From IMG/VR virus record IMGVR_UViG_3300025087_000641, positions 1 to 64,000 of that record: a stretch of 64,000 nucleotides of DNA. The stretch is one strand, 5' to 3'. Positions within the stretch are counted from its first letter, which is position 1; each line of letters starts with the position of its first letter. The notes under the pieces were generated by a model. The model had not been told where the DNA came from. It worked only from the letters and a program-made list of their open reading frames with translations, and did not search any database. The position numbers and the translations under genes were made by a program. Source of the DNA: a virus. Positions 33,026 to 53,798 of this stretch are shown here, in pieces.

Positions 33026-33464
33026 TTTGACAGGCGAACAGATTGACGCCATGCCTGCTGGACACGAGATGGATGTACTTGTGGCAGAGCATGTGATGGA
33101 GTGGGAACGTCTTGATTCTTGGATGGGAAGTCCTCTTGCTAAAGGATGGGATGGTTTTTGGGATGGTGAGTGGGTGAAATGGATTATAATGCCAGAATCG
33201 GACGATGAGAACAGGGCTAAATTGTGGTCTCCAAGTACAGATATTGTTGCGGCATGGCAGGTGGTGGAGAAACTTGTCGAAAACTGTGATGGAAGAGACT
33301 TCTTTATAGAATGTTGGGGTGATGGTGAATGGTTTGTTGCGTTCCATCCGATTGGATATAGTTCAAGAAAACCACAGGGTGCGTGCGATGGCAAGAAAAC
33401 CCAGAATCCATCCGCACCCTTGGCGATTTGTCGCGCCGCATTGAATTGGGCAATTGATGACTGA
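33018..33464 (+). CDS. phage ABA-sandwich-domain protein, 148 aa
   Basis: MDVLVAEHVMEW near residue 18, LWSPSTDIVAAWQVVEKL near 70 and APLAICRAALNW at the C-terminus reproduce the phage ABA-sandwich pattern seen in many phages. Its function is unknown. GTG start overlapping the previous gene; the next gene starts inside its end. A useful marker that this island sits in phage DNA. Confidence 0.78.
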   Translation: MTDLTGEQIDAMPAGHEMDVLVAEHVMEWERLDSWMGSPLAKGWDGFWDGEWVKWIIMPESDDENRAKLWSPSTDIVAAWQVVEKLVENCDGRDFFIECWGDGEWFVAFHPIGYSSRKPQGACDGKKTQNPSAPLAICRAALNWAIDD

Positions 33465-34470
33465 TAATCTAGTATCCATGCAAAACATCTTCTGGCGTGG
33501 TGCTTCTGTCGCCATCACTGGCATTACTGGAAGCCTCGGAACTGCGCTATCCAAAGAACTATTGAAACCAGAGTACAATATTTCTCGTCTTGTTGGGATA
33601 AGTCGAAAGTGGCAAGACCAAGACAGACTCCGCAAGGAATTGGGGGATGACGATAAACTCAGATTATTCATTGGCGACATTCGAGACATTGACAGACTTA
33701 GACTTGCACTAGACGGGGTTGAATATCTTGTCCATGCAGCAGCTATAAAATCAGTTCCCGCCTGCTGGTATAATCCCACAGAGGCCGTAAGCATAAACGG
33801 ACAGGGAACTATCAATGTTCTGCAAGCGTCTAGGGATGCTGGGGTCAAACGGGTAATTGTCATCTCTAGTGATAAGGCAGTAGCACCCGCCAGTGGCAAC
33901 CTCTACGGCGCAACAAAAGCAGTATGCGAGTCTGTGGCGGTATCGTATAACAACTATAGCGCCAGTCGTCAGACTCGGTATGCGGTTTGTCGCTATGGAA
34001 ATTGTGTAGCGTCAAGTGGATCAGTTATCCCATTGTTCCTAAGCCAAAAAGAAAGCGGGAAATTGACCATTACTCATCCAAAGATGACAAGATTCTGGAT
34101 TACGCTAGATGAGGCAACACATTTCATCCTGAAAAGTATGGAGTCAATGCTCGGTGGCGAAATCTTTGTACCCCACCTCCCATCCTCTCGGATAACTACG
34201 TTGGCATCTATGATAGCGCCTGAGGCAGAGATTGAGACAATCGGTATTCGTCCCGGCGAGAAGTTGCACGAGGTTATGCTAACACCAGATGAAGCACCAC
34301 GGACTAAAGATTTGGGATGGGCATACAGAGTCGAGCCACAAGAAAGGACATGGGGAGGCTTGCCGTATATTGGGGGTAGTCCAGTTCCGGCAGATTGGAT
34401 TTACAGCAGTGCAAGTGCTACGCGACTTGGCGAGGATGAGTTGCGCGGGATGTTGTCCGAATTTGTATAA
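33457..34470 (+). CDS. pseB: PseB-like UDP-GlcNAc 4,6-dehydratase/5-epimerase
   Basis: PseB makes UDP-2-acetamido-2,6-dideoxy-L-arabino-hexos-4-ulose, the first step of pseudaminic acid synthesis. An extended SDR with NAD site TGITGSLG (21-28), SSDKA (137-141), catalytic Tyr150/Lys154 in LYGATKA, FWITLDEATHFIL, GGEIFVPHLPS and the hallmark RPGEKLHE near residue 260. 337 residues fits. I chose ATG 33457 (TTG 33454 is the alternative). It opens the sugar-nucleotide island; partners are pseC (47774), the PseH-like gene (38564) and the rest of the pathway. Related 4,6-dehydratases with other stereochemistry cannot be excluded. Confidence 0.85.
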   Translation: MTDNLVSMQNIFWRGASVAITGITGSLGTALSKELLKPEYNISRLVGISRKWQDQDRLRKELGDDDKLRLFIGDIRDIDRLRLALDGVEYLVHAAAIKSVPACWYNPTEAVSINGQGTINVLQASRDAGVKRVIVISSDKAVAPASGNLYGATKAVCESVAVSYNNYSASRQTRYAVCRYGNCVASSGSVIPLFLSQKESGKLTITHPKMTRFWITLDEATHFILKSMESMLGGEIFVPHLPSSRITTLASMIAPEAEIETIGIRPGEKLHEVMLTPDEAPRTKDLGWAYRVEPQERTWGGLPYIGGSPVPADWIYSSASATRLGEDELRGMLSEFV

Positions 34471-34494
34471 TCCAATGTAAAAGAGAGGATACAA

Positions 34495-35301
34495 ATGGGA
34501 TATACAACGGGTGTTCAATGGACAAATCGGACTCACAATTTCTGGTATGGGTGCAAAAAGGTATCTGCGGGATGTAAGTTCTGTTATGCAGAACGCGATA
34601 TGGAGCGGTATGGACGCAATTTCAATACTGTGACTAGGGCAAAGGGATTTTATACGCCACTAAATTGGAAAGAGCCAGCACTTGTATTTGTGAATTCATG
34701 GTCAGACTTCTTTATTGAGGAAGCCGACGAATGGCGCAGTGATGCTTGGGATGTTATCTGGAAGACCCCGCATTTGACTTATCAGATACTTACCAAGCGT
34801 CCAGAGAATATCAAAGATAGACTCCCCGCCAATTGGGGATGGGGATGGGATAATGTTTGGTTGGGGGTAAGTGCAGAGAATCAGGCAATGGCAGACAAGC
34901 GCATACCAATTCTATTGTCCATTCCGTCAAGTATTCGTTTTGTAAGTGCAGAGCCGTTACTCGGAAAGATTGATCTTGGACTGTGGTGTATGGATTGCGA
35001 TGATTATATGCGTATTCATCGCGCGGAGGGCGAGCATCTAACCGATGCGGGAGATGGATTACACTGGATAATTGCCGGTGGAGAGAGTGGTCATACTCCG
35101 CGCCCATCTGATATTGATTGGTTTCGTTCTATTCGCGACCAATGCCTCTCCGCAAATATTCCGTTCTTCTTCAAACAGGTGGGCGGAAGCAAGAAAGTCA
35201 ATGGCGCATGGGGTGGGGACTTGCTTGACGGCAAAATATGGCACGAGTTTCCACAGACAAGCAAGCAGACAGAATCACAGCCAGAATTGATTAGGAGTTG
35301 A
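34495..35301 (+). CDS. DUF5131 (phage Gp37/Gp68) radical-SAM-like protein
   Basis: The N-terminus has WTNRTHNFWYGC, then GCKKVSAGCKFCYAER: Cys20, Cys27 and Cys30 form the DUF5131 three-cysteine site thought to hold an iron-sulfur cluster. Later conserved pieces are QILTKRPENI, NVWLGVSAENQ, RFVSAEPLLGKID, WIIAGGESG and FFFKQVGG. 268 residues is full length. The family is common in phages and plasmids but its reaction is unknown; radical chemistry on a base or sugar is inferred. Preceded by GAGAGGA. Confidence 0.88.
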   Translation: MGYTTGVQWTNRTHNFWYGCKKVSAGCKFCYAERDMERYGRNFNTVTRAKGFYTPLNWKEPALVFVNSWSDFFIEEADEWRSDAWDVIWKTPHLTYQILTKRPENIKDRLPANWGWGWDNVWLGVSAENQAMADKRIPILLSIPSSIRFVSAEPLLGKIDLGLWCMDCDDYMRIHRAEGEHLTDAGDGLHWIIAGGESGHTPRPSDIDWFRSIRDQCLSANIPFFFKQVGGSKKVNGAWGGDLLDGKIWHEFPQTSKQTESQPELIRS

Positions 35302-35302
35302 C

Positions 35303-36050: not shown

Positions 36051-36511
36051 GCAATATTGTATATGAATGGATTATGGACAGAGACGGAAATGTTGTGGTT
36101 GGGGAACACATCTTGTCACAAGAGGAAGTAGTCGCCATATTCAGTGGTGGAAGTAGTACTAACACGACCTCAAATGGTGGAATGTTGACATGGACTATTC
36201 CCAACGCAAACAATAGTAATCAGTCAACTCCCACAGTCAAGGTTGCCCTCTATCGGCGTAGCACCCATGATGGGAAGGGGAACTACAAGCAATTCACGCC
36301 TACGCAAGAACAACTCTGGAAAGACCTTGCAGTAGTTGCGACGATGACGAGTGCACTGGCATGGAAATCTGTAGATGAGATTTTCAGAGACGCCACGGAC
36401 TATCGGAACAGAATGATAGGTGGCAAAAAGGAATACATCTCTAGGGACTTTGTTGAACAGTCATTAGAAATACTTTGCAATAATGGATTGATCGAGAAAA
36501 ACGATGCCTAA
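36047..36511 (+). CDS. hypothetical protein, 154 aa
   Basis: Residues 30-60 are Ser/Thr/Asn-rich and probably flexible; the rest is helical with DAVEQSLEIL-like pattern at the C-terminus (SRDFVEQSLEILCNNGLI). Overlaps the cytidylyltransferase start. Function unknown. Confidence 0.5.
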   Translation: MSNIVYEWIMDRDGNVVVGEHILSQEEVVAIFSGGSSTNTTSNGGMLTWTIPNANNSNQSTPTVKVALYRRSTHDGKGNYKQFTPTQEQLWKDLAVVATMTSALAWKSVDEIFRDATDYRNRMIGGKKEYISRDFVEQSLEILCNNGLIEKNDA

Positions 36512-37214
36512 TTGTGTGGCGGTTATTCCCGTTCGGGGAAACAGCAAGGGTATTCCAAGAAAGAATCTAATTGACTTGGGCGGCAAGCCTCTATTCATGT
36601 GGACAGTTGGGGCGGCAATAGAGTCTGGCGTATTTGACAAGATTGTAGTGAGCACAGAAGATGATGAAATCATAAGTTATTGTGACAACGGGAAAGTGGA
36701 TGTAATTTTTCGCCCGCGCTATCTTTCACAAGATCATGTTCAATTGAGTGAGGTTGTGTTACATGCCTATCGGGTTATGGAGCAAGAGTGGGGATGGAAT
36801 CCAACAACGCTATGCTTGTTACAGGCGACCTCGCCACTAAGGACGGCGGGCCATATCATCAATGCCATGCGACAATATAGGGGGCGAGGGACTCTATTCT
36901 CAGCATACATTGACAAACGGTATCACTGGGCGGTGGAGGATAGAGTCGAACCAATACAGCATAATCCTGCTAGACGACTTGGCAGGCAATGGGAGCCAAG
37001 TCAAATTTATACCGAGAACGGGGCGATTTATTTCTTTCCAGCAAAACGATTTAGCCTAGAATGCACAATTAGACTAGAACCATTTGATGTCTATATTATG
37101 GACGAGGAAGATGGATTTGAAATTGATACCCCTTGGCAACTTGATATAGCAAGGCTTAGACTAGAGAAATATGGTCTGCATTTCCCGGAACTTGCGCCAC
37201 AATTAGGCCCTTGA
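36504..37214 (+). CDS. CMP-nonulosonate cytidylyltransferase (NeuA/PseF family)
   Basis: Activates a nonulosonic acid with CTP to CMP-sugar plus pyrophosphate. IPVRGNSKGIPRKN at 8-21 is the CTP-binding motif, LLQATSPLR at 105-113 and the late IDTPWQLDIA (D-x-W region) are family signatures. 236 residues is normal for a single-domain enzyme. Final cytoplasmic step before transfer. Its last ~40 residues are repeated, diverged, downstream of the adjacent TnpB element (38448-38561), so a second copy once existed. Pseudaminate specificity is inferred from its partners. Confidence 0.88.
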   Translation: MPNCVAVIPVRGNSKGIPRKNLIDLGGKPLFMWTVGAAIESGVFDKIVVSTEDDEIISYCDNGKVDVIFRPRYLSQDHVQLSEVVLHAYRVMEQEWGWNPTTLCLLQATSPLRTAGHIINAMRQYRGRGTLFSAYIDKRYHWAVEDRVEPIQHNPARRLGRQWEPSQIYTENGAIYFFPAKRFSLECTIRLEPFDVYIMDEEDGFEIDTPWQLDIARLRLEKYGLHFPELAPQLGP

Positions 37215-37239: not shown

Positions 37240-37246
37240 GTAAGGC

Positions 37247-38431
37247 ATGATTATCAATAAATCATTTAAGTTCAGAGTTTATCCAACGAGAGAACAGAAA
37301 AAAGAACTCGTCAGGCAATTTGACGCATCACGTTTTGTATATAATTATTTTCTTCGCCAAAGAATTGATTTCTATGTTGCCCACAGGGGGGAGAAAAAAC
37401 AATCCCTGAATTATAATGATACTTCTGCATTGCTTACTCAACTTAAAAAACAGCCTGAATATAATTGGCTTAGGGATACAAATGCCCAATCTCTTCAACA
37501 GTCCTTACGCAATCTTGATATTGCCTATAATAATTTTTTCAATAAACGGACTGAATTTCCGAGATTCAAAAGTAAAAGGGCAAAGCAATCCTTCCATGTC
37601 CCACAATCTTTTTCGGTAAATGTTGAAAATGAACATTTAATTATCCCCAAAATAACACCACTAAAAATTGTTCTGCACCGCCATATTGAGGGGAAAATGA
37701 AGGGCGTTACCATTTCCCGCTCTCCGTCTGGCAATTATTTTGCCTCTATTCTATGTGAAGTTGAAATTAATCCGAGTCCAAAAAGTCTAGGGCACACTAT
37801 TGGATTAGACTTGGGATTGAAACATTTTGCCATTTCATCGGATGGGGCAAAAATAGATTCTCCAAGATATTTTAGGGTATCCGAGCGTAGGCTTTCACGT
37901 TTTCAGCGTAACCTTTCAAGAAAGAAAAACGGAAGTCGGGGACAAGAAAAGGCAAGATTGAAAGTAGCACGTCAGCACGAAAAGATTGTAAATCAACGCA
38001 TTGACTTCCTTCATAAATTAAGTCGTCGCTTAGTAGACGAGAGCCAAGCTATCTATGTTGAGGACTTAAATGTGAAGGGCATGATAAAGAATCGCGCCCT
38101 TGCAAAATCTATCGGCGATTCTGGGTGGGGAGAATTTGTGCGCTGGTTAGAATACAAGGGCAGATGGAATGGTTGTTATATTGGGAAAATTGATAGATTC
38201 TTTCCATCAAGCAAGCGGTGTCACAAATGCGGCTACATCTACCAGGATTTGCGACTCTCGGAACGTGAATGGACTTGCCCAGAATGCGGGAACACAGTAG
38301 ACCGTGATGAGAACGCTGCCCAGAATATTCTTATTTTTGGGGAAGAACGTAGGGCTGGGATGGCCCGAACGCATACGCGAGGGAAGATTCGTCGCCGAAT
38401 CGCTGATCCTCGAAGTCGCATGATTCTATAA
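37247..38431 (+). CDS. tnpB: TnpB RNA-guided endonuclease (IS200/IS605 family)
   Basis: 394 residues, complete. The RuvC-like catalytic residues are in place: Asp188 in GLDLGLKHF, Glu272 in YVEDLNVKGM and Asp352/354 in VDRDENAAQNI. The zinc finger C325-x2-C328 ... C344-x2-C347 is intact. The N-terminal wedge begins KFRVYPTREQ. TnpB cuts DNA guided by an RNA from its own 3' end and favours element retention. The basic tail (THTRGKIRRR) overlaps the presumed guide-RNA region. No tnpA in the window, so movement would need one in trans, or the gene serves as a homing-type nuclease. Confidence 0.92.
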   Translation: MIINKSFKFRVYPTREQKKELVRQFDASRFVYNYFLRQRIDFYVAHRGEKKQSLNYNDTSALLTQLKKQPEYNWLRDTNAQSLQQSLRNLDIAYNNFFNKRTEFPRFKSKRAKQSFHVPQSFSVNVENEHLIIPKITPLKIVLHRHIEGKMKGVTISRSPSGNYFASILCEVEINPSPKSLGHTIGLDLGLKHFAISSDGAKIDSPRYFRVSERRLSRFQRNLSRKKNGSRGQEKARLKVARQHEKIVNQRIDFLHKLSRRLVDESQAIYVEDLNVKGMIKNRALAKSIGDSGWGEFVRWLEYKGRWNGCYIGKIDRFFPSSKRCHKCGYIYQDLRLSEREWTCPECGNTVDRDENAAQNILIFGEERRAGMARTHTRGKIRRRIADPRSRMIL

Positions 38432-38563: not shown

Positions 38564-39046
38564 ATGCTAACACTTTCGCCAATAACGCTAAAAGAAACGG
38601 AGAGGATTTGGCAACTCAGAAACGATGTTGCCACGAGGCGCGAGTTTGGGATACCTGTAATCTCATATGCTCAGTGCCTAGATTGGGTGGCGACTGTCAC
38701 CGACAGAAAGACTCCCGAATATGTGTTCCTCGTCAGAGATGCCAAGATGGGGAATATCGGTCTTATCATTCTGGAGAAACACGGCGCAGAAATTGAGATT
38801 CATGTTACAATAGACCCTGCCCATCGAGTACGCAGGGGATATGGCAAACAGGCGATAAAACTAGCAACCGACTGGGCATTTATGAATGGCGCAGACAGGG
38901 TAGTTGCCAACATCCGAGAAGAAAATTACAAAGGACTCTTTGCATTTGAGTCCTCTGGGTACAAAGAAGTCAGAAACTATCTTGGGCCGAGGAATATATC
39001 ATACTTTGAATACGAGATAAGAAATGACCAGAAGAAGAAATACTAA
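38564..39046 (+). CDS. GNAT N-acetyltransferase, PseH-like
   Basis: 160 residues with the GNAT fold: IWQLRNDVATRREFG near residue 15 (W/LRN motif of sugar N-acetyltransferases), ISYAQCLDWV near 34, and the acetyl-CoA motif HRVRRGYGKQAI at 87-98. PseH acetylates the 4-amino group of UDP-4-amino-4,6-dideoxy-L-AltNAc. Position between the pathway genes supports this. It starts 2 nt after the cytidylyltransferase remnant; Lys-rich C-terminus overlaps the next ORF by 23 nt. Confidence 0.75.
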   Translation: MLTLSPITLKETERIWQLRNDVATRREFGIPVISYAQCLDWVATVTDRKTPEYVFLVRDAKMGNIGLIILEKHGAEIEIHVTIDPAHRVRRGYGKQAIKLATDWAFMNGADRVVANIREENYKGLFAFESSGYKEVRNYLGPRNISYFEYEIRNDQKKKY

Positions 39047-39851
39047 TATAGACAGACATTGGGATGAAATTACATGGTTATATCTAAATAATTTTGAATC
39101 AACTGTATCATTGGGAGAAAAATTTAGCGTACATGCATCAACTATAGAGAGGCGATTGAAACAGAGTGGTATTCCTGTAAGGCCAGGCGGGAATCTTACT
39201 GAAAATCACACAGCCTTTGATGAAATTAATCCAGATATGTTGTATTGGCTTGGCTATTTGGCTGGAGATGGATGTGTTACACACAATGCAAATGGAATAT
39301 TATCAATCATTTCAATAACAAGCATTGATATTGAACATATTGATAAATTTCTACATTTCCTGTCATCGCATTCCAAAATAACACGGCGCGAAAGCGAAAT
39401 AAATGGCAAGAAATATGTTGTTCATGGGGCAAAAATTACATCTGAAAGAATCGCAAATAGACTTGTTTTTCTTGGGGTAACTCCAAGAAAATCAAGAACC
39501 ATTTCAATATGCCAACAATCCATAGTTTCGACGGTTGATTTTCTGCGTGGTATAATAGATTCTGACGGTTCATTAACTATAACGGCTGATGGATTTACCC
39601 CGACGATAAGCATTTACACCAGTAGCGGGAAATTCTCGGAACAACTCTCTCTTGGTTTCAATGAAATGTTTGGAGAGACATGTGGGATATATTATGACAA
39701 AAGGGGGTCTGGAGCATACCAAGTCGCACTACATGGAAAGAGAATATTGCCCATCTTGCATAGATTATATTCGGGAGACGACATATCATTAAACAGAAAA
39801 AGGGATATTGCATTAGATGTTTTGGAAAGGTTTGGATATGCCCAAATTTGA
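39024..39851 (+). CDS. LAGLIDADG homing endonuclease, free-standing
   Basis: Two LAGLIDADG helices: YWLGYLAGDGCV at 74-85 and FLRGIIDSDGSL at 173-184, both with the catalytic acidic residue, so a monomeric two-repeat enzyme of 275 residues. Residues 10-55 form a helix-turn-helix (VSLGEKFSVHASTIERRLKQ), a common fusion. It overlaps both flanking genes (23 and 14 nt) and is not inside an intron. AT-rich codon use (many ATA, TTA, AAT) differs from neighbours, which indicates recent arrival. Confidence 0.88.
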   Translation: MTRRRNTNIDRHWDEITWLYLNNFESTVSLGEKFSVHASTIERRLKQSGIPVRPGGNLTENHTAFDEINPDMLYWLGYLAGDGCVTHNANGILSIISITSIDIEHIDKFLHFLSSHSKITRRESEINGKKYVVHGAKITSERIANRLVFLGVTPRKSRTISICQQSIVSTVDFLRGIIDSDGSLTITADGFTPTISIYTSSGKFSEQLSLGFNEMFGETCGIYYDKRGSGAYQVALHGKRILPILHRLYSGDDISLNRKRDIALDVLERFGYAQI

Positions 39852-40731
39852 TACTAAACAAGATTCTCGCATTAAATCTGCAAATTATAGGCATGTAGAA
39901 TTAATAGCAGAAATAGGAAGCAACGCAAACGGCGATTTTGAACGTGCGCGGCAATTGGTAGAAACGGCGTGTTCCTGTGGTGCTGATATTATCAAGGTGC
40001 AACTCTTCGCCGCCGATACCCTGTGGCGCAAAGACCACCCTCGCCATGCCGAGACCCTGAAAGTTGAGACTAAGCCGGAATGGATTAAGCCACTGAAAGA
40101 AATCATTGAGAAGCACGGCAAAGAGTTTCTGTGTACTCCGTTCTCTCCATTTGCCATTGATGTTCTTGAAGAGGTGGGTATCAAGAGATACAAGATAGCA
40201 TCTGGAGATGTCACCTACCGCCCATTACTACAGGCGGTAGCATTGACTGGCAAGCCGGTTTTACTCAGCGTTGGGTTTTCAACATTTGCTGAAATCCACA
40301 AGGCGATTGAATGGCTTAGGCCGTCCGGGAGTCGGGAGGATATTACGCTCCTGTGGTGTGTGGGTGACTATCCAACGACTCCTGCTAGGGCTAACTACCC
40401 TGCTGTTCTTGACCTCATCCAAGAGTTTGTGATGCAATACAATTGCCAGATTGGATTGTCTAGTCACCTGAAAGAGTGGTGGTTAGACCTAGTCCCAATG
40501 GCTTACAAAATCAGCGTCATTGAAAAGCACTTTGACCTGTTTGATAGTGCGGGCATTGAACATGGTCATTCACTATCGCCACATGACTTTACGCTATTCT
40601 CACAAGCAGTACGGGATGCGGAAAAGTCGCTGACTCGATATGATTTCCCGTCACCAGATGATGACGAGACGCGGACTTTATGCAGGCGTGACCCGCGAGA
40701 TTGGCTTAGGCCAGAAAGACGCGATAAATGA
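39838..40731 (+). CDS. NeuB-family nonulosonic acid synthase (PseI candidate)
   Basis: Condenses a 6-carbon sugar with PEP to give a 9-carbon nonulosonic acid. ELIAEIGSNANGDFERA at 21-37, IIKVQLF, FLCTPFSPFAIDVLEE, YKIASGDVTYRPLL, LSVGFSTFAEI and IGLSSH are in family order, with EKHFDL late. I chose ATG 39838. At 297 residues it lacks the usual ~60-residue C-terminal SAF (antifreeze-like) domain, whose arginine reaches into the partner subunit's active site; the end (RRDPRDWLRPERRDK) may substitute or the enzyme may be altered. First ~20 codons overlap the homing endonuclease gene. Confidence 0.85.
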   Translation: MPKFDTKQDSRIKSANYRHVELIAEIGSNANGDFERARQLVETACSCGADIIKVQLFAADTLWRKDHPRHAETLKVETKPEWIKPLKEIIEKHGKEFLCTPFSPFAIDVLEEVGIKRYKIASGDVTYRPLLQAVALTGKPVLLSVGFSTFAEIHKAIEWLRPSGSREDITLLWCVGDYPTTPARANYPAVLDLIQEFVMQYNCQIGLSSHLKEWWLDLVPMAYKISVIEKHFDLFDSAGIEHGHSLSPHDFTLFSQAVRDAEKSLTRYDFPSPDDDETRTLCRRDPRDWLRPERRDK

Positions 40732-43293: not shown

Positions 43294-43615
43294 CAAAGTT
43301 AATATGGGATTTACTTCTAGACTGGCATGGGGATTATTTTCAAGAATAGAGAGTCCGGGATTTGGCGCATGTGAACGATGTGGAATGTCATGGGCTATAG
43401 TTAATGGACACGCCACTTATGTAGCAGGTGGTTTTGGAATATTCCCGCTATGCTTGGAATGCAAATTGGAATTATCGCCAGAGGAGCGATTGCCATATTA
43501 TCTTGCTCTCTATAAACGTTGGCCTACAATGCAATCACATTATTCCATTGATGAACTTACACAAGCGGTTTTGAATGAGGTTGTAGATGAGCGAGAATTG
43601 GAAAGTTGTTCTTGA
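43271..43615 (+). CDS. zinc-motif protein, 114 aa
   Basis: CERCG near residue 34 and CLEC near 63 form a zinc-ribbon pair. Starts at ATG 43271 or ATG 43304. Overlaps both neighbours. A small island protein of unknown role. Confidence 0.55.
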   Translation: MKERKAVDKVNMGFTSRLAWGLFSRIESPGFGACERCGMSWAIVNGHATYVAGGFGIFPLCLECKLELSPEERLPYYLALYKRWPTMQSHYSIDELTQAVLNEVVDERELESCS

Positions 43616-46068: not shown

Positions 46069-46174
46069 TAAATTGGAAGACGACATCAGGCTATCAATCA
46101 TTGCGTATATCGCCAGACTCATTCTGCTTCTTATAGGTTTTTCAATCTTTGTGAGGTTGTTCCCGCCAAAATGA
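46040..46174 (+). CDS. membrane microprotein, 44 aa
   Basis: Polar N-terminus (KQDPKGPFDKLEDDIR), then one helix at about 19-38 and a basic end. It overlaps both neighbours (28 nt and ATGA). Translation coupling with the sugar isomerase downstream suggests equal expression. Confidence 0.55.
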   Translation: MKQDPKGPFDKLEDDIRLSIIAYIARLILLLIGFSIFVRLFPPK

Positions 46175-46740
46175 AACGTCAAAATATAATAGAGTCGTCG
46201 CTAAAAGACTCTGCAACAGCGATGCTCTCTCTAATTCCCATAGTTCCATTTTTAGACAAATTTGCACAATCGGTTATAGAGACGTTTGACTCCGGAAACA
46301 AGATTATCGTCATTGGCAATGGCGGGAGTGCGGCGGACGCGCAACATTTTGCAACAGAGATGGTGGTGAGATATAAAAAAACTGGAATTGCGCTTCCCGC
46401 GATTGCACTGACGACTGATACAAGCATTCTGACAGCGACAGGAAACGACATCAACTTTGACCAGATATTTGCGAGGCAAGTTGAGGCGCTTGGCAGACGA
46501 GGCGATATGCTGTTAGCGATAAGCACAAGCGGAAACTCGCGTAACATTCTGAGGGCAGTTGAGGTTGCAAAGAATCTGAGTCTGTTCTGTGTGGCATTGA
46601 CTGGCAAAACTGGGGGGCGGTTATCGCAACTCTGCCACATGGTAATCAAAGTACCGCAGAATGCCACAAGTCGTATTCAAGAGGCGCATATTGCCATCTT
46701 ACATGCGGTATGCGAGGTGGTAGAAAGCCAGAAAAGATGA
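46171..46740 (+). CDS. gmhA: SIS-domain phosphoheptose isomerase (GmhA-like)
   Basis: NGGSAADAQHFATE at 50-63 and STSGNSRNILRA from 118 are the sugar-phosphate-binding signatures of sedoheptulose-7-phosphate isomerase. A helical N-terminus and 189 residues match GmhA. It may feed a heptose or supply a keto-aldose step for the second nonulosonate branch. No heptose kinase is recognised in the window. Confidence 0.88.
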   Translation: MKRQNIIESSLKDSATAMLSLIPIVPFLDKFAQSVIETFDSGNKIIVIGNGGSAADAQHFATEMVVRYKKTGIALPAIALTTDTSILTATGNDINFDQIFARQVEALGRRGDMLLAISTSGNSRNILRAVEVAKNLSLFCVALTGKTGGRLSQLCHMVIKVPQNATSRIQEAHIAILHAVCEVVESQKR

Positions 46741-46853
46741 GACGGATGCTGATTGAACTCATCATTTGGTTGATATTGGCGATTATCATAATTGTTGGCA
46801 TTGGACTCTTTGGTTGGGACACATGCGGCGGTCTGGTTTGGTGGTGCATATGA
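46737..46853 (+). CDS. membrane microprotein, 38 aa
   Basis: ATGA overlaps on both sides. A helix of Ile/Leu (LIIWLILAIIIIVGIGLF) with basic N-terminus MRRM. Coupled to gmhA and the TIM-barrel gene. Confidence 0.55.
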   Translation: MRRMLIELIIWLILAIIIIVGIGLFGWDTCGGLVWWCI

Positions 46854-47671
46854 GTCTCGGAATAATGCAGGGACGCCTTGTCCCACCAATAGATGGCAAA
46901 CTACAGGCATTCCCCACAAATGGGTGGAACAAAGAACTAGAGATATGTCGAGGATTGGACGTTGCATATATTGAGTGGATTTATGATGGCGAGGACTTAT
47001 ACTTTTTGCCAAATCCAATCTCAACATTTGAGGGTGCAAATGCGCTGAGTGGGATACAGTCTCCTCGTATCGCGTCTCTGTGTGCTGATTACTTTGTGAA
47101 AGCGCCACTGCTGAGAGTGCCAGGGAATATTCTAGAACAGAGAATAGCAAAACTCAGATGGCTGGTTTTTCAATGCAGTCTTGCAAATATTCCCACTCTT
47201 GTTCTCCCATTTGTGGACGATAACGCGATTCGCACACACGGCGAAATTGATGATGTCATTTGTATTCTCTATGAACTTTCTGGATTAATTGACGCCTGTA
47301 ATGTCAGGATTGCGCTAGAAACAAATCTTGACGAATGTGATATGCAGACTCTTTCGCGTGAATTGGTAGATGTGTTTGTTGGAATAAATTACGACTCTGG
47401 AAATAGTGCATCGCTTGGTTATGATGTTGAAAAAGAATGGAATATGTATGGACATCGCATTGTCAATGTCCACATCAAAGATAGAGTCCTAAAGGGTAGC
47501 AGTGTGCCACTTGGCGAGGGCAGTACCAATTTTGATACACTGGCAAAGATGCTGTCTAAATTCAATTATCGCGGCAATGTAGTCTTACAGGTGGCGCGGG
47601 GAGAGTCGGGCAAAGAAGTTGAGTGGTATCACAAGAACAGGAACTTCCTGCTTGACAAGGGCATCGGATGA
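46850..47671 (+). CDS. TIM-barrel sugar-phosphate isomerase/epimerase
   Basis: Start fixed by overlap at 46850. SLGIMQGRLVPP is the N-terminal strand of xylose isomerase-like AP-endonuclease-2 proteins; later IALETNL, GINYDSGNS, VNVHIKDR and GEGSTNFDTLAKML supply the metal-binding His/Glu/Asp pattern. 273 residues, complete. Likely interconverts keto sugar phosphates for the pathway. Confidence 0.8.
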   Translation: MSLGIMQGRLVPPIDGKLQAFPTNGWNKELEICRGLDVAYIEWIYDGEDLYFLPNPISTFEGANALSGIQSPRIASLCADYFVKAPLLRVPGNILEQRIAKLRWLVFQCSLANIPTLVLPFVDDNAIRTHGEIDDVICILYELSGLIDACNVRIALETNLDECDMQTLSRELVDVFVGINYDSGNSASLGYDVEKEWNMYGHRIVNVHIKDRVLKGSSVPLGEGSTNFDTLAKMLSKFNYRGNVVLQVARGESGKEVEWYHKNRNFLLDKGIG

Positions 47672-47796
47672 ATACATTTGGGGCAGACTTCATCATCGTC
47701 TTTGTAGCATTAGTGCTGGCATGTTCAATCGGCGCATTTGTGAAACTTGTCCATGATGTTGTAAAAGGCAATAATGATTCCGCAAAGTCGTCATAG
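47668..47796 (+). CDS. membrane microprotein, 42 aa
   Basis: ATGA overlap with the isomerase and 23-nt overlap with pseC. One helix at residues 7-28 (DFIIVFVALVLACSIGAFV). Part of the recurring microprotein-enzyme alternation. Confidence 0.55.
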   Translation: MNTFGADFIIVFVALVLACSIGAFVKLVHDVVKGNNDSAKSS

Positions 47797-48856
47797 CATC
47801 ACCCGCGAGGACATCAAATTTGTTGGCAAGGCTCTTGCTGGCGACTTTCTGACTCGCGGGCCATTGACACTTGAGTTTGAGGCAAAGATAGCCGAATTGT
47901 GTGGCAAGAAGTATTGTGTCACAATGGCAAATGGGACAGTCGCCCTCCATGCCGCGCTATTGGCCTGCAATGCGAAGCATGTAGTCTCTCCAACTCTGAC
48001 ATTCTCTGCTATCGCCAACGCTACACACTTCGCTGGTGCTAAACTCTATCTCACAGATGTAGACTCATATAAACTCCATGCCACAACGTACAGCCAACCC
48101 CTTCCCGCGAAAGGGCTTGTTTTCGTTCCGATGGACTACGCTGGTCTGCCTTATAATCTGGACTCTTCTGGATTGGGGGCTGGCTATACTACTGTCATCC
48201 GTGATGCGTGCCACTCATTTGGGGCAACGATTAATGGAGAGTCGCATGTCAAGCGCGATGATATGGCCGTCTTTAGTTTTCATGCTATAAAGACAATATC
48301 ATCTGGAGAGGGGGGATGTGTCGTAACCGATGGCGAAGAATACGCCACAGAACTTCGGAGAATACGGAACAACGGACTAGAGAATCATCAACAGCATCGG
48401 TTTGGATTGAACTACCACATGAGCGAAATTGAGGTAGCACTTGGATTATCGCAGTTGAAACGACTTGACAAGATATTGGAGAGACGAAGAGAACTGGCAA
48501 GTAAGTATATTGAGCATTGGGCAGGACAATACGACAGAATTACTTTGCCCGCCGACGATAATGGTCATGCCTATCATCTATTCGTTATCCGCCTTGCCGA
48601 CTCTGTAAAAATAAAACGAGACACATTCCGAAGAGAACTTGCCGATATGGGCATTGGAACACAAGTCAACTATCGCCCCCTCCACAGACAACCCATTGTG
48701 GCGTCAGTAATTGACTCTGCGCTCACTGAGTTTCCGAACGCTGATTGGGCATGGGAACGAATGCTGAGTATCCCACTATACTATGGATTGACAGACAATG
48801 AACAGAAGGTGGTCATGAAAGCCATAGATAGACTGTTGGATAAACATGCCAAATAA
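47774..48856 (+). CDS. pseC: PseC-like PLP aminotransferase (DegT/DnrJ/EryC1)
   Basis: PseC converts the 4-keto sugar from PseB to UDP-4-amino-4,6-dideoxy-L-AltNAc. The N-terminus IPQSRHSITREDI, DFLTRGPLTLEFE, ANGTVALHAALLA, RDACHSFGA (PLP contact) and MAVFSFHAIKTISSGEGG with the Schiff-base Lys173 match PseC/ArnB-type enzymes. 360 residues is close to the usual 370-390. Together with PseB this fixes the pathway direction. Overlaps the SDR gene downstream by 11 nt. Confidence 0.87.
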   Translation: MIPQSRHSITREDIKFVGKALAGDFLTRGPLTLEFEAKIAELCGKKYCVTMANGTVALHAALLACNAKHVVSPTLTFSAIANATHFAGAKLYLTDVDSYKLHATTYSQPLPAKGLVFVPMDYAGLPYNLDSSGLGAGYTTVIRDACHSFGATINGESHVKRDDMAVFSFHAIKTISSGEGGCVVTDGEEYATELRRIRNNGLENHQQHRFGLNYHMSEIEVALGLSQLKRLDKILERRRELASKYIEHWAGQYDRITLPADDNGHAYHLFVIRLADSVKIKRDTFRRELADMGIGTQVNYRPLHRQPIVASVIDSALTEFPNADWAWERMLSIPLYYGLTDNEQKVVMKAIDRLLDKHAK

Positions 48857-49646
48857 TCTATTTGACCTCACTGGCAAGGTGGCGATCATAACTGGCGGGG
48901 CAGGATTGCTTGGGCAACAGCACGCCGAGGCAATTGCGGCATTCGGCGGATGTCCGGTGATTCTGGACATTGATTATGATGCGGCCAGAAACATTATCAA
49001 GGAAATCGGCGTGGGGTTTGCGTTTGAATGTAATGTGACGCGCCCCCAAGATATTTATGATACGTTGAATGAAACACTTACGCTACGCGGGCATGTGGAT
49101 ATTCTCATCAACAATCTCTCTTGTAATGCCAATGTTGAATCTTTGGGACAATATTCACGCCTTGAATTCTATCCATATTCACAATGGGCAAAGGACTTGG
49201 AACTCGGATTGGGAAGTGCATTCCTATGTAGTAAAATAATTGGCAGTCACATGGCAGACAAAGGCAAGGGGGTGATTGTCAACATCGCCTCAGACCTCTC
49301 CGTGATAGCGCCAGATCAGAGGCTCTATCACAAAGAAGGACTTGCTGATGAGGAGCAGCCCAAAAAACCAATTTCTTATTCTGCAATAAAGCATGGTATT
49401 ATTGGGTTAACTCGCTACCTTGCGACATATTGGGCGGGTAGAGTTAGGGTAAATGCCATAAGTCCTGGTGGAATATTTAATAATCAGCCAGATGATTTTG
49501 TGCGACATATTAGCGACAGAATCCCAATGGGGCGCATGGCACGGGCAAATGAAATACAGGGAACATTGGTCTTTCTATGTTCTGATGCGTCATCATATAT
49601 GACTGGGCAAAATATTATTGTGGATGGCGGAAGGAGTATTTGGTAA
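48846..49646 (+). CDS. classical short-chain dehydrogenase (copy 1)
   Basis: TGGAGLLG at 16-23, DILINNLSCNA (NNAG-equivalent), NIASD and active-site Tyr178/Lys182 in YSAIKHG; GQNIIVDGGRSIW is the typical end. 266 residues. It reduces a keto or oxidises a hydroxyl group on a sugar. Composition becomes AT-richer past ~49,370, towards the HNH gene. A related SDR follows after the homing endonuclease. Confidence 0.85.
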   Translation: MPNNLFDLTGKVAIITGGAGLLGQQHAEAIAAFGGCPVILDIDYDAARNIIKEIGVGFAFECNVTRPQDIYDTLNETLTLRGHVDILINNLSCNANVESLGQYSRLEFYPYSQWAKDLELGLGSAFLCSKIIGSHMADKGKGVIVNIASDLSVIAPDQRLYHKEGLADEEQPKKPISYSAIKHGIIGLTRYLATYWAGRVRVNAISPGGIFNNQPDDFVRHISDRIPMGRMARANEIQGTLVFLCSDASSYMTGQNIIVDGGRSIW

Positions 49647-50146
49647 TGAGGAAAATAGAATTATCAAGAGGATATACTTCTGACATTGATGATGAGGATT
49701 ATGAATGGGTATCCCAATACAAATGGAATGTTTCACTGTGTAACCATACCCAATATGCTTATAGATATTCTTACAAGCCGAATGGGACTGGGGCGAAGAA
49801 ATACATGCACCGCGAGATAATGGAAAGATATAACGGGGCATTAGGGAGTGGTATGCAGATAGACCATATAAATCACGATGGACTGAACAACAGGAAAACA
49901 AATCTTAGGATATGTACCCAGTCCCAAAACAATTGGAACGGGAGGGGGATTTTGGAGGGAACCTCAAAATACAAGGGAGTATACTTTTACAAAAGTCGCG
50001 GGAAATGGGTTGCACAAATGTGCCTTTTCGGGAAGCGCATTTTCATTGGTAGATTCGACAGCGAAATTGATGCGGCAAGAGCATATGACAGAGTAGCAAA
50101 AGAAAAGTATGGAGAATTTGCGAAACTGAACTTCCCGGAGGAATAA
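49646..50146 (+). CDS. HNH homing endonuclease with AP2 domain
   Basis: Residues 54-97 are an HNH core (MHREIMERYNG, then IDHINHDGLNNRKTNLR with the His-Asn motif), and 109-150 an AP2/ERF-type DNA-binding fold (YKGVYFYKSRGKWVAQM, then IGRFDSEIDAARAYD). The ATG overlaps the SDR stop and its stop abuts the next SDR start, so it replaced the junction exactly. Free-standing homing type; recently acquired by its AT-rich codons. Confidence 0.9.
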   Translation: MRKIELSRGYTSDIDDEDYEWVSQYKWNVSLCNHTQYAYRYSYKPNGTGAKKYMHREIMERYNGALGSGMQIDHINHDGLNNRKTNLRICTQSQNNWNGRGILEGTSKYKGVYFYKSRGKWVAQMCLFGKRIFIGRFDSEIDAARAYDRVAKEKYGEFAKLNFPEE

Positions 50147-50943
50147 TGACGATGGATTTATTGGCTTCTAATTTATTCTCCGTGGCGGGGAAGACAGCCC
50201 TTGTCACTGGGGCAAATGGTTATTTAGGACAAGTGGTGGCAGGAGTCCTTAAACAGAATGGTGCAAGTGTTATTGGGACTTATGCAACAAAAATCCCAAC
50301 AGATGGATTCTGTGATGAGTGGTATCTGATTGATTCAAATTCGCCATATCCAGACTTGGAAGAAAGATTGCGCGAAATTGAATCTAATAACCAAATAGAT
50401 GTCCTTATCAACAACGCGCATCCCATGAAACGCGAGGCTGGATTCAATGTTGAGACAGACCAAATAGAACACTATTCACGGGCAGAATGGCAACAGAACA
50501 TCAATGGCGCTATTGGACTCCCGGCACTCACAACATCAATCATTGGGGCGGGGATGAAAGATAGAGGGCATGGTAGTATTATCAACATCAGTAGCATGTA
50601 CGCCCTCGTTGCCCCCCATCCAAATTTGTACAAAGATACGCTATACATGAATCCGCCCGGATATGGGGCAAGCAAGGCGGCTCTACTTGAGTTTACTCGC
50701 TATGTGGCGGCATTCTGGGGACAGTATGGAGTGCGGTGTAATGCCCTGTGTCTTGGCCCATTCCCGAAATCAATTACACCAGAGATGCAAGAGTTCATCA
50801 CGCGGTTGAACTCGCGCACTTGTCTTAATAGAACTGGCAGGGCAGGGGAGATAGCTGGAGCAATTCTATTTCTGGCGAGTGAGGCATCGTCATACATGAC
50901 GGGCCATGCCCTAGTCCTCGATGCTGGATGGTGTGCCACATGA
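50146..50943 (+). CDS. classical short-chain dehydrogenase (copy 2)
   Basis: TGANGYLG at 21-28, DVLINNAHP, NISSMYA and active-site Tyr173/Lys177 in GYGASKAAL; ends GHALVLDAGW. Same fold and architecture as copy 1, separated from it only by the HNH gene. 265 residues. Likely acts at a different carbon of the same sugar. Confidence 0.85.
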   Translation: MTMDLLASNLFSVAGKTALVTGANGYLGQVVAGVLKQNGASVIGTYATKIPTDGFCDEWYLIDSNSPYPDLEERLREIESNNQIDVLINNAHPMKREAGFNVETDQIEHYSRAEWQQNINGAIGLPALTTSIIGAGMKDRGHGSIINISSMYALVAPHPNLYKDTLYMNPPGYGASKAALLEFTRYVAAFWGQYGVRCNALCLGPFPKSITPEMQEFITRLNSRTCLNRTGRAGEIAGAILFLASEASSYMTGHALVLDAGWCAT

Positions 50944-51113
50944 CTTTTCCGAAGTCCCCCAATGTGCCATTTGTCCAATCGGTTATCTTTGTCATGTCTC
51001 ATGTTGGCTATCCATATTGGGATGATGTGGTTTTGAATCCAACCAGTGCTAAGGCGCTTGGTCTAAAACTTATTGAATACGCAGGCGAATGGATAGAGGA
51101 AAAGCGTGACTAA
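50940..51113 (+). CDS. small protein, 57 aa
   Basis: ATG 50940 overlaps the SDR stop. Aromatic strand (GYPYWDDVVLNPTSAK) and C-terminal helix. Overlaps the TylF-like gene by 8 nt. Function unknown. Confidence 0.5.
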   Translation: MTFPKSPNVPFVQSVIFVMSHVGYPYWDDVVLNPTSAKALGLKLIEYAGEWIEEKRD

Positions 51114-51963
51114 TCCCTGTGTCCATTGCAACGAGAATGAGTCAGACTTTGACACATACCTCTGCAAGAAATGTGCCGAGGACTTTCAGGTTACACCACA
51201 AACAACGAGGGATTTCTATGGCTTTCTGGCTAGAACGGGAAGGTCGTATCTAACATCGTATTTGTCAAGGCCAGACCAAGAACAGGGGAAGCCTCACGAT
51301 TATATCTTTGCCGCGCCTGCCGCAAGTTTTCACCACGCTAGACGATTCAATTTCTTTACTCGCATGGCAGAACTTGTGCGAGGTGTTCCGGGGGACATTG
51401 TGGAGTGTGGCGTAGAACATGGGCAGACATTACTATATTGGCTATCCATTGCATTTGACGAATTGACGCCACGAAATGTATGGGGATTTGACTCTTTCGC
51501 CGGGCCAGAAACAGTTGGAGAGAAAGATAAGAATTCTAATGGCGACATATATCCGCCCCTTCCGAATGTCTATGCTAGGGCAACCGAGGGATTTATCAAT
51601 CTCCTGAATGCCTATGGACTTCCTCGTATTTGGACGAACTCACATTTAGTCGTCATACCCGGCTTTTTCTCTGAGACTCTGAAAGATTATAGGGGCGAGA
51701 AGATAGCGATTCTTCACCTTGACGCGAACTACTACGACAGTTACAAAACTTGTATGGAGATGCTGTGGCCGAAAGTGGCCCGTGGTGGAGTTGTAATTTT
51801 TGATGAATACCAAAATCAAAATGATACTCTACACTTTGCTGGTGCAAAACGCGCAATAGACGAATATATGGAAACACTCAAGGATGACGGAACGACAATC
51901 ACGAGGGACAAAATGTATGGCAAATTCTATTGCATCAAGGGAGGCATTCAATGGCGGATTTAG
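51106..51963 (+). CDS. TylF-like O-methyltransferase with N-terminal zinc ribbon
   Basis: An N-terminal zinc-ribbon-like segment (CVHC at 5-8, CKKC near 20) precedes a macrocin-O-methyltransferase-type catalytic domain: GDIVECGVEHGQTL (SAM site), VWGFDSFAGPE, LHLDANYYDSYKTC (metal-binding Asp) and GGVVIFDEY. 285 residues. TylF enzymes methylate sugar hydroxyls. The zinc-ribbon fusion is unusual and may tether it to a partner. GTG start. Confidence 0.83.
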   Translation: MTNPCVHCNENESDFDTYLCKKCAEDFQVTPQTTRDFYGFLARTGRSYLTSYLSRPDQEQGKPHDYIFAAPAASFHHARRFNFFTRMAELVRGVPGDIVECGVEHGQTLLYWLSIAFDELTPRNVWGFDSFAGPETVGEKDKNSNGDIYPPLPNVYARATEGFINLLNAYGLPRIWTNSHLVVIPGFFSETLKDYRGEKIAILHLDANYYDSYKTCMEMLWPKVARGGVVIFDEYQNQNDTLHFAGAKRAIDEYMETLKDDGTTITRDKMYGKFYCIKGGIQWRI

Positions 51964-52835
51964 TTATCGGCGGTAGCCCAATTGGGGACGGACACCCAGT
52001 AATTTGTATAGGAGAGGAGGGTATAAATCATCAGGGCAATATAGATATTGCCAAGAAACTTGTTGATGTTTGTATTGAGGCAGGTTGCAATGCTGTCAAG
52101 ATGCAATCTCGTACAGTTGATGTAGTTTATTCGGAAGAGGAACTTTCCAGGCCGAGAGAGTCGCCCTTTGGAACAACAAATGGAGACTTGAAACGCGGTC
52201 TTGAATTGGGGAGGAAAGAATATGACGAATTTGATGCTTACTGCAAATCAAAGAGTATGACATGGCTTTCCTCATGTTGGGATGAAGCGTCTGTTGATTT
52301 TATTGCACAATACAACCCACCATGTTTCAAGATTGCCTCTGCCTGTATCACGGATGATAACCTGCTAAGACATCATCTACAATATCATAAGCCACTCATT
52401 ATCAGTACGGGGATGACAACTTTGCGCCAAATTGACCATGCCATTGAAATTGTCGGGACTGACAATGTTGCCCTAATGCATTGCATTGGAGTTTATCCGG
52501 CTGATCCGAGGACTCTAAACCTTCGTGTTATCCAAACACTGAAAGAGCGGTATAATGTTCCCGTTGGATGGAGCGGACATGAAGTAGGACTCGCTACAAC
52601 CGTTGCGGCTGTGGCGATGGGTGCAAATCTTGTTGAGAGGCATGTCACATTGGATAGGGCAATGTTCGGCTCAGATCAGTCGGCCTCGGTAGAACCCCAG
52701 GGATTGAAAAGACTTGTCAGGGATATTCGGGTTGTTGAAGATGCAATGGGGGATGGCGTAAAACGAGTATTGCCTGCCGAGTCTGTTGTGGCAAATAAGT
52801 TGCGCCGTGTTGACACTCTGAAACAGGAGGGGTGA
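51951..52835 (+). CDS. second NeuB-family synthase
   Basis: VICIGEEGINHQGNIDIA at 17-34, AVKMQSRTVDVVYS, WLSSCWDEASVDFI, FKIASACITDDNLL, ISTGMTTLRQID, VGWSGHEVGL and VERHVTLDR are in family order, but the sequence is well diverged from the first copy (39838). At 294 residues it also lacks the C-terminal SAF domain. Next to a KdsC-like phosphatase (53274), it may use a 6-phosphate substrate and make a 9-phosphate acid. I chose ATG 51951, overlapping the previous stop. Confidence 0.83.
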   Translation: MADLVIGGSPIGDGHPVICIGEEGINHQGNIDIAKKLVDVCIEAGCNAVKMQSRTVDVVYSEEELSRPRESPFGTTNGDLKRGLELGRKEYDEFDAYCKSKSMTWLSSCWDEASVDFIAQYNPPCFKIASACITDDNLLRHHLQYHKPLIISTGMTTLRQIDHAIEIVGTDNVALMHCIGVYPADPRTLNLRVIQTLKERYNVPVGWSGHEVGLATTVAAVAMGANLVERHVTLDRAMFGSDQSASVEPQGLKRLVRDIRVVEDAMGDGVKRVLPAESVVANKLRRVDTLKQEG

Positions 52836-53269
52836 TGACTGGGCGACCAGATCTGACGTTTCAGATTTCCGAGAGTGACAATGAGGTTTATGATGTCATG
52901 CGGGATTTGGCACAACGACTTGGCCTGACCGAGTTACGGACGAGTCCCATGACGATGGTGAGTTGGACTGCGCCCGCGCCAATTGTAGAAACTCCTCCAC
53001 CATCCAATCCTCAACCATCTCGAAATGCCCCATACAAGTTGGCAACACGAGTGCCAACACGCATTCAGTTTGTTGGAGAAGTCAATTGCTGGGTTGCGCC
53101 AGACCCAAATTCGCGCAAGTTGACTTTTACTGACAATCGGGAGGTGGACATCTTCGAGGAGAGAGATACCGAGTTGTTTGGAAAGTGGTGGTGCGTACTC
53201 CATAAAACATTGCCGAGTGGTGAACTGTTTGAATTATGGATTCCGGCTGCGTATTTTGTTCTGTTCTGA
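52832..53269 (+). CDS. hypothetical protein with Pro-rich linker and SH3-like end
   Basis: Residues 1-45 are helical, 47-65 a proline-rich linker (PAPIVETPPPSNPQPS), and 70-145 resemble a bacterial SH3-like beta barrel (NCWVAPDPNSRKL, VDIFEERDTELFGKWWCV). Possibly a peptide- or glycan-binding adaptor. GTG 52832 or ATG 52835 start. Confidence 0.55.
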   Translation: MMTGRPDLTFQISESDNEVYDVMRDLAQRLGLTELRTSPMTMVSWTAPAPIVETPPPSNPQPSRNAPYKLATRVPTRIQFVGEVNCWVAPDPNSRKLTFTDNREVDIFEERDTELFGKWWCVLHKTLPSGELFELWIPAAYFVLF

Positions 53270-53273
53270 AAAG

Positions 53274-53798
53274 ATGATTAAGGTCGCAATATTCGATACC
53301 GATGGAGTTATGTCCGATGGCGCAGTAATCTACCTCGATGGTGGGGTGCGAGGCAGAGTCTTCAATGTCAGAGATGGACAAGGGATTACCAATCTAAAGC
53401 ACGCCGAGGTATCTGTCTGGCTAGTCAGTGGCGAACAAGACTCTCATCTGTTTGACCGTTCCGAGAAGTTGGGCGTAGACCAATTGTTTGGATTGCCAGA
53501 CAAACGCAGAGTCCTAGAGGAACTTCCGCTTGACATAAACAACGACGAAATAGCATTCATGGGTGATGACATTGGGGACATTCCGCTGCTGATGATGGTG
53601 GGTATGCCTGCGTGCCCACAGGACGCTCACCGTGACGTTGTGAACTGCGTTGTTAGTCTACGTGGGTTTGTCGCCACAAAAAATGGCGGCAAGGGGGCAG
53701 TACGAGAGTTCTGCGACTATATATTGACAAGAAACAGACTCGATACTGCCCCAGAGTATATGCGAGAGATTGGAGAGTTGAAAAACGCATTGGAATAG
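53274..53798 (+). CDS. KdsC-like HAD phosphatase
   Basis: DTDGV at 8-12 (nucleophile Asp8), VRDGQGITNLKHAEV, WLVSGEQ (Ser/Thr motif II), GLPDKRRVLEEL and GDDIGD at 97-102 (motif IV) match cap-less C0 HAD phosphatases such as KdsC; the C-terminal GGKGAVREFCDYIL tail is also typical. KdsC-type enzymes remove phosphate from Kdo-8-P or nonulosonate-9-P. 174 residues. Its stop codon lies within the palindrome at 53794, the end of the + strand block. Confidence 0.87.
   Translation: MIKVAIFDTDGVMSDGAVIYLDGGVRGRVFNVRDGQGITNLKHAEVSVWLVSGEQDSHLFDRSEKLGVDQLFGLPDKRRVLEELPLDINNDEIAFMGDDIGDIPLLMMVGMPACPQDAHRDVVNCVVSLRGFVATKNGGKGAVREFCDYILTRNRLDTAPEYMREIGELKNALE

Follow-up and report, generated by a model that had tools for sequence, protein, structure and literature searches.

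Single phage genes that touch host glycans are already known, and the question raised here is whether a phage can carry a multi-step pathway for an acidic surface sugar. The DNA concerned (here, the window) comprises bases 1-64000 of the 105,404-base IMG/VR virus record IMGVR_UViG_3300025087_000641, which is of metagenome origin. Between 33.4 and 53.8 kb it holds an island of 18 enzyme open reading frames (ORFs), all unbroken, that includes two putative synthases of nonulosonic acids (NulOs), named NeuB1 and NeuB2. The island appears equipped to make one or two surface sugars of the sialic-acid-like kind, which sequence alone cannot name, and the best reading of its genes is a NulO pathway that runs through PseB and PseC to NeuB1; a complete pseudaminic acid (Pse) pathway is not established. 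What is observed is the family membership of the enzymes, most of their catalytic motifs, their place in one phage genome and similar gene neighbourhoods in bacteria. An earlier note on this DNA had described a phage-borne, multi-step NulO island with two synthases, which was confirmed on a genuine phage genome, and the ORFs that it named proved real, each lying where it had been placed on the plus strand, open and unbroken, with family matches far beyond chance.

The ORFs of the whole record were called by a mechanical rule, which may have admitted spurious ones. In the 28-53.8 kb region every kept ORF longer than 151 aa is on the plus strand; from 53.8 to 95 kb the long ORFs are mostly on the minus strand, opposite to the island. 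This minus-strand block encodes a tape measure protein (60951..63515, minus strand; phrog_3779, 5.8e-21), a tail tube protein and, by PHROGs matches, a major head protein (1.8e-69), a head protease (2.3e-6), a portal (2.7e-33), a terminase (1.8e-14) and a DnaB-like helicase (7.7e-14), six of the 10 record proteins submitted to the PHROG scan having matched. With terminase, portal, head protein and tape measure together on it, the contig is that of a tailed phage. The genome had been thought to end at the tape measure; only the window ends there, and past it the record continues, with genes for head and packaging, up to base 105,404. The terminase gave zero matches against phage records. Relatives were collected as 84 loci, 14 through the terminase and 70 through the head protein, and NeuB was found in none of the 16 whose records were tested for it, a result that tells little about gain or loss since 10 of these 16 records are shorter than 21 kb.

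The first branch of the proposed pathway is represented by five families, and all enzyme features given from here on for the 28-53.8 kb region are on the plus strand. The PseB-like UDP-N-acetylglucosamine (UDP-GlcNAc) 4,6-dehydratase (33454..34470, ATG 33457; TIGR03589, 1.1e-99) scored 333.4 bits against a cut-off of 407.75, had the UDP-GlcNAc C6 dehydratase 2gn4 as its closest PDB chain (2.5e-71) and keeps the SxDK..Y motif (SSDKA...YGATK). For the PseC-like DegT aminotransferase (47774..48856; TIGR03588, 9e-82; SFHAIK), PseC was the top NCBIfam model, with 275 bits against a cut-off of 423.5, and ArnB 1mdo the top PDB match. A GNAT acetyltransferase (38564..39046; PF13302, 3.8e-13) is a weak candidate for PseH; in a search of 7990 ORFs of the fetched loci, a database rich in NulO genes, its sole kin at E ≤ 0.001 was the GNAT part of one Peregrinibacteria PseG-GNAT fusion (three entries, E 5e-4). 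The compact PseG-like UDP-sugar hydrolase (41661..42407; TIGR03590, 3.4e-13 over part of the profile) reached 49.8 bits against the PseG cut-off of 153.55 and, when aligned with eight PseG-family proteins, seven of them above that cut-off, kept GLGHKMR (GxGH..R) and SAGGTVYE (SAGGT..E) with large stretches missing. Its AlphaFold model (predicted local distance difference test score 77.9) ranked C. jejuni PseG second and third in the PDB, after the plant MGD1, which is support and not proof because PseG sequences in the folding alignment bias the fold. The transferase for cytidine monophosphate (CMP) activation, of the PseF/NeuA family (36504..37214; PseF-like, 9.8e-29), scored 100.6 bits with TIGR03584 (cut-off 205.7), and matched the NeuA structure 1eyr (1.8e-25); PF02348 matches no other protein of the record, which thus has a single cytidylyltransferase for two synthases.

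Between these genes lie further candidate enzymes of sugar modification, namely an NAD-dependent sugar epimerase/dehydratase (42394..43293; PF01370, 9.3e-29), an S-adenosylmethionine-dependent methyltransferase of the Methyltransf_23 family (43587..44510; PF13489, 1.1e-27), which is 34% identical to a methyltransferase ORF in the bacterial locus L248, a short sugar N-formyltransferase (44483..45076; PF00551, 8.3e-19; NLH and DTGD), which is 44% identical to a gene adjoining NulO genes in the viral contig L010, and an ATP-grasp ligase (45073..46068; PF15632, 1.9e-17; NF009405, 237.3 bits against 390). A motif search found the expected motifs, whose catalytic roles we take as generally understood, in PseB, PseC, PseG, the CMP-transferase, the formyltransferase, the HAD phosphatase, GmhA and both short-chain dehydrogenase/reductase (SDR) proteins.

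The second branch centres on NeuB2 (51930..52835; PF03102, 1.7e-74), a short NulO synthase whose identity to proteins from 80 genome loci, kept from at least 581 relatives, is 47-63%. In the synthase tree it lies within a 25-row clade of short synthases with support 95/89; the absence of the SAF domain from this clade was tested in the viral records and, for the bacterial members, judged from length and from profile matches that end before the C-terminus. Next to it is a HAD phosphatase of the KdsC/KDN-9-P type (53178..53798; KdsC-like, 9e-31), which scored 106.9 bits with TIGR01670 (cut-off 106.95) and 98.2 with NF058599 (cut-off 180) and keeps the DxD and GDD motifs (DTDGVMSDG, GDDIGDIP). 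The place of NeuB2 in the short clade and the presence of this phosphatase point to a route through a NulO phosphate like that of ketodeoxynonulosonic acid (KDN), and on this basis the second branch that had been suggested earlier looks best described as KDN-like. Its other candidate members are a GmhA-type sugar-phosphate isomerase (46171..46740; 3.7e-60; NF010546, 203.1 bits against 276), a TIM-barrel isomerase/epimerase (46766..47671; PF01261, 3.7e-12) and an SDR oxidoreductase (48846..49646; NF006619, 164.2 bits against 255; NF050062 PtmA, 103.2 against 350) that has YSAIK, the narrower pattern YxxSK not being matched, and is 49-55% identical to ORFs in L014, L024, L030 and L058 and 54% in L022 and L055. 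A second SDR oxidoreductase (50146..50943; PF13561, 1.9e-29; YGASK) is 45% identical to an ORF of L022 and is followed by a TylF-type methyltransferase (51106..51963; PF05711, 2.9e-23).

Similar neighbourhoods occur in bacteria (Streptomyces, Chlorobiota, Acidobacteriota, Peregrinibacteria and others), where the synthase is up to 63% identical and where KdsC-like, CMP-transferase, SDR, GmhA and TIM-barrel genes are shared with the island. Near the NeuB2 kin, tblastn at 1e-8 found a KdsC-like gene in 56 of the 80 loci, a CMP-transferase in 32, SDR in 14, GmhA in 10, a PseC-like gene in seven, the TIM barrel in six and a PseB-like gene in five, counts that were made without a control set, with many loci incomplete, and in which the PseB- and PseC-like hits may be other SDR or DegT proteins. 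Several of the branch-2 gene kinds stand together in L014, L022, L024 and L030. We assume that NeuB2 and these bacterial neighbourhoods are tied to KDN or teichulosonic acids; a teichulosonic acid cluster is named in the literature for Streptomyces coelicolor. Of 17 genomes selected for their NeuB2 kin, four also have PseI above its cut-off, so one cell can carry two branches.

From these families we infer the scheme that follows, with all its substrates, products and acceptors, its sequence of steps and its benefit to the phage. In the first branch, PseB and PseC would convert UDP-GlcNAc into a UDP-amino-trideoxy sugar, the new amine would be acylated by the GNAT protein (or by the formyltransferase), UDP would be removed by the PseG-like hydrolase, and NeuB1 with phosphoenolpyruvate would give a NulO close to pseudaminic acid, with altered sugar recognition, of which the PseF/NeuA-like enzyme would make the CMP sugar. 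In the second branch, GmhA, the TIM barrel and the SDRs would shape a sugar phosphate, which NeuB2 would condense with phosphoenolpyruvate and the KdsC-like enzyme would convert, by dephosphorylation, into a KDN-like NulO; the same transferase as in the first branch may activate it. Decoration of the products would fall to the methyl-, formyl- and ATP-grasp enzymes, and the glycosyltransferases that the phage encodes at 28-32 kb, a GT2 protein (28389..29642; PF00535, 9.1e-22) and a GT4-type protein (31428..32558; PF13692, 3.9e-14) upstream of the island, or those of the host, would attach the sugars to the host envelope, which would alter phage receptors. We regard it as probable that the island is a working two-branch NulO factory on a tailed phage and that its products are attached to the host envelope during infection. 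A bolder proposal, possible if doubtful, is that the phage makes two NulOs itself, one of them an undescribed sugar formed by a SAF-less NeuB1 on a substrate derived from PseB and PseC and then formylated or methylated, such that the infected cell would display a viral glycan beyond the capacity of the host by itself.

A number of results weigh against a working two-branch NulO island, and several of them concern NeuB1 (39817..40731, ATG 39838; PF03102, 6.8e-49), a divergent member of its family whose sequence nonetheless supports a NulO synthase. NCBIfam scored it at 178.0 bits as NeuB (cut-off 399.65) and at 158.0 as PseI (cut-off 340.25), whereas four references above the PseI cut-off reached 469-496 bits as PseI and 298-322 as NeuB. 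Pse synthases are described in PMC7371886 as having Phe where the synthases of neuraminic and legionaminic acids have Gly, a difference that is mostly, not strictly, conserved. At this marker (KIxSFE) NeuB1 reads KIASGD and NeuB2 KIASAC, so that neither has the Phe of PseI; it is present in three of the four references, the fourth (L187) having Pro, and in viral synthases that adjoin PseB and DegT genes (L008, L010). The SAF domain had no match in the whole record, while the viral records G022, G023 and G025 each match it. The synthase tree was built from 48 NeuB-family proteins, four of 52 rows (L191_4, L107_7, L108_6, L109_5) having been dropped as partial or divergent, and its PseI-like group of 10 rows, named after the sequences had been seen, took in four rows by cut-off (one without Phe) and six by the Phe marker. 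This group had support 88/81, and NeuB1, with a branch length of 2.77 changes per column, belongs to the same tree half without falling inside the group; the approximately unbiased (AU) test did not reject its grouping with the PseI-like rows (p 0.115). In the other 46 rows, 28 columns reach 90% conservation or more; NeuB1 shares the conserved residue at 20 of these, two His and two Lys-type positions included, and departs from it at eight, among them an Ala at position 37 for His and a Lys for Gly, both residues being found in 46/46 of the other rows; NeuB2 differs at two of the 28. Lacking the Phe marker and the SAF domain and changed at these columns, NeuB1 may use another substrate or be failing. 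Synthases without Phe do occur in PseB/PseC clusters, as in L248, which holds PseB (44%) and PseC (32%) homologues, an SGE-type NeuB, a GxGH protein, methyltransferases and an SDR, the GxGH protein (from its N-terminus) and adjoining flagellar-looking ORFs having been assigned by eye.

On the same side of the balance, the PseH step is weak, as no PseH model of NCBIfam matched the GNAT protein at E ≤ 0.01 and the acetyl-CoA motif pattern that was tried on it was absent. The single cytidylyltransferase is tied to neither branch in its family tree, which has long branches. Apparent thiamine pyrophosphate (TPP)-dependent and Gfo/Idh enzymes, recognised by eye from N-termini, stand in some of the bacterial branch-2 neighbourhoods, in contrast to the island, where none was found among the proteins scanned; the names given by eye to neighbours in L014, L030 and L248 also include the GxGH protein and an ATP-grasp enzyme. 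Neither a sialyltransferase nor a Maf-type transferase was found among the record proteins scanned, which were part of the total. When curated NCBIfam cut-offs were applied to 20 island proteins, none reached its cut-off. The earlier note had proposed candidates for all six steps of a complete pseudaminic acid pathway. Members of the PseB, PseC, PseG and PseF families do stand there, all below cut-off, the supposed PseH is a generic GNAT protein and the PseI step lacks both Phe and SAF. The complete pathway is not established because of the synthase without Phe marker and SAF, the weak PseH and the one cytidylyltransferase for two synthases. In the phylogenetic placement suggested for the synthases, NeuB2 falls in the short clade, and NeuB1 stays outside the PseI-like group without its inclusion being rejected.

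Were the island nevertheless a canonical pseudaminic acid pathway, NeuB1 would be a fast-evolving true PseI, which we consider rather unlikely. The presence of the PseB, PseC, PseG and PseF families, the outcome of the AU test and a marker that even L187, above the PseI cut-off, does not share all speak for it; on the other side, the F and E of PseI are G and D in NeuB1, its NeuB score exceeds its PseI score when the references show the reverse, its record gives no SAF match, and it lacks a Phe that viral synthases beside PseB and DegT (L008, L010) do have. Superinfection exclusion and virion decoration, the two roles that the earlier note had suggested, are speculative. That the sugars decorate the virion, e.g. 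its tail or head proteins, instead of the host surface seems unlikely. The glycosyltransferases adjoin the island and there are several long tail-region ORFs, which would suit such a role, and the sequence leaves the matter undecided, no glycosylation site or dedicated protein glycosyltransferase having turned up and none having been specifically searched for.

Two further alternatives concern the state and origin of the island. Captured bacterial genes in decay, some of them degenerate (NeuB1, the short formyltransferase, the short PseG) and interrupted by mobile elements, are suggested by the conserved residues lost in NeuB1, by a PseG and a formyltransferase that are short against their profiles and by TnpB and endonuclease ORFs within the island; we hold this to be improbable, given 18 unbroken enzyme ORFs, most tested motifs present and codon usage that matches the structural genes. 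A bacterial NulO island joined to a phage contig in assembly would accord with the lack of any independent contig over the island edges, the five IMG/VR fragments that match the record at 99.9% identity or more (L093, L094, L111, L112, L113, from five different metagenome identifiers) spanning only its 71.4-100.1 kb part and none reaching the island. Tetranucleotide signatures of 5-kb pieces, three from the island (35-50 kb) and eight from the structural region, gave a correlation of 0.60 between the two, as against 0.62 within the island, 0.55 within the structural region and 0.63 with L112, which is of the same phage. Against 14 loci not from this phage, viral and bacterial, the island reached at most 0.44 (L117, a relative whose head protein is 64% identical), then 0.37 (L109) and otherwise ≤0.31. 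Codon usage correlated at 0.97 between 25 ORFs of the island and 28 of the structural part, and Shine-Dalgarno-like sites precede 11 of the former and 13 of the latter, compared with 18.5% at random places. In addition, a paralogue of the island TylF protein (51106) lies among the structural genes (record 83430-84338; 36% over 294 aa), and a protein with a phage ABA-sandwich domain adjoins PseB. Because island composition and codon usage match those of the structural genes, a chimera is highly improbable, and we take the island to be a settled part of the phage genome, although no contig spans its edges.

Having favoured a two-branch NulO pathway on a phage, we consider how rare it is. Eight island proteins were searched against 50,697 phage records, with three records matched by NeuB2, one by NeuB1, none by PseG, one by PseF, 17 by PseB, 29 by PseC, 12 by GmhA and 30 by the formyltransferase. 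A synthase and the cytidylyltransferase were both matched in only one record, the Moritella viscosa contig FPLJ01000048, which is bacterial. Two island queries were matched in MH319754 (NeuB2, PseC), MH319749 (PseC, PseB), LR756504 (PseC, GmhA), OQ572407 and OR851163 (PseC and formyltransferase in each), and megablast of the island (33454-58000) against the phage records gave zero matches. That one or two such genes are the usual load of a phage agrees with these records and does not fit the IMG/VR contigs L006-L010 and L109, which carry several NulO genes. NeuB2 matched five IMG/VR contigs (L006-L010), four of them with two NeuB genes; NeuB1 matched one stretch, which was not confirmed; PseB matched four more contigs, each with a NeuB match in its record. 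Two NeuB genes are found in each of L006, L008 and L010, as in the island, in smaller clusters; PseB and DegT are shared with the island by L008, L010 and L109, and the formyltransferase also by L010.

Profile checks covered the genes of L109 and four from L010. In L109 (IMG/VR 3300033153_003124, 4826-9527), a compact, pseudaminic-like cluster of NeuB, PseB, DegT, GNAT, cytidylyltransferase and WbuX genes is followed by terminase and capsid genes of another phage; it is smaller than the island and differs in that PseB (414.3 bits) and the WbuX amidotransferase (218.3) are above cut-off, its DegT, NeuB and cytidylyltransferase ORFs look short, and PseG had no match in its record. With NulO clusters on these other contigs, the trait recurs in viruses, and the present island is the fullest among those examined. 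In comparison with the bacterial PseB-PseC-PseH-PseG-PseI-PseF pathway, the island has family members for five steps and a GNAT protein for the sixth, and has the PseB, PseC and PseG motifs in common with it, and differs in having no profile above cut-off, a synthase without Phe marker or SAF, and a phage as its carrier. Among the matches listed for the open-access literature on NulO genes in phages and viruses, none described a whole NulO pathway in a phage. Phage-borne NulO metabolism as such is represented by epaA/epaB, genes of Acinetobacter prophages that act on Pse (PMC12053666), and by pseI as a viral auxiliary gene (PMC6359870, Table 1), the one a modifying pair and the other a single gene, unlike the multi-step pathway considered here.

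The block had been described as lying in one orientation, which it does, and several ORFs with no evident sugar role are interspersed in it, namely a DUF5131 protein that is not a known sugar enzyme (34495..35301; PF07505, 3.7e-72), a PD40 protein (35511), TnpB of the IS605 OrfB type (37247..38431; PF01385, 1.4e-27; PF07282, 2.6e-23), a LAGLIDADG ORF that overlaps the start of NeuB1 (39024..39851; PF14528, 4.9e-11), a histidine phosphatase (40955) and, between the two SDRs, an HNH-AP2 endonuclease (49640..50146; PF13392, 8.3e-13; PF00847, 3.5e-10). TnpB has a Cas12f1-like TNB domain and the cytidylyltransferase and GNAT genes, not a TnpA, as direct neighbours. A search for direct repeats marking an insertion gave seven two-copy families of 18-29 bases with second copies 72-89% identical, none of them convincing. 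Further homing-endonuclease-like ORFs were noted by eye only, at record positions 68351-69334, 77401-77988, 89230-90213 and 99330-99911. A pectate-lyase-like domain (1.5e-17) is present in a tail-region protein (record 70904-72322; L003 7904-9322) that also matches the endosialidase N-terminal extension, weakly and below cut-off. The early region of the window holds an RtcB RNA ligase (416-1588), a Mgm101-type recombination protein (19959-21308) and a weak, sub-cut-off RNA ligase match (25789-26370), and a tRNA-Ile(tat) call (2642-2717) lies inside a 378-aa ORF (1592-2728), one of which may be spurious.

Taken with the smaller viral clusters, the two-synthase island suggests that complete routes to acidic surface sugars are brought along by some phages. 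An active island would allow the idea that phages remodel the envelope against competitors to be tested directly, and would be a source of compact PseG enzymes and of synthases without the SAF domain.

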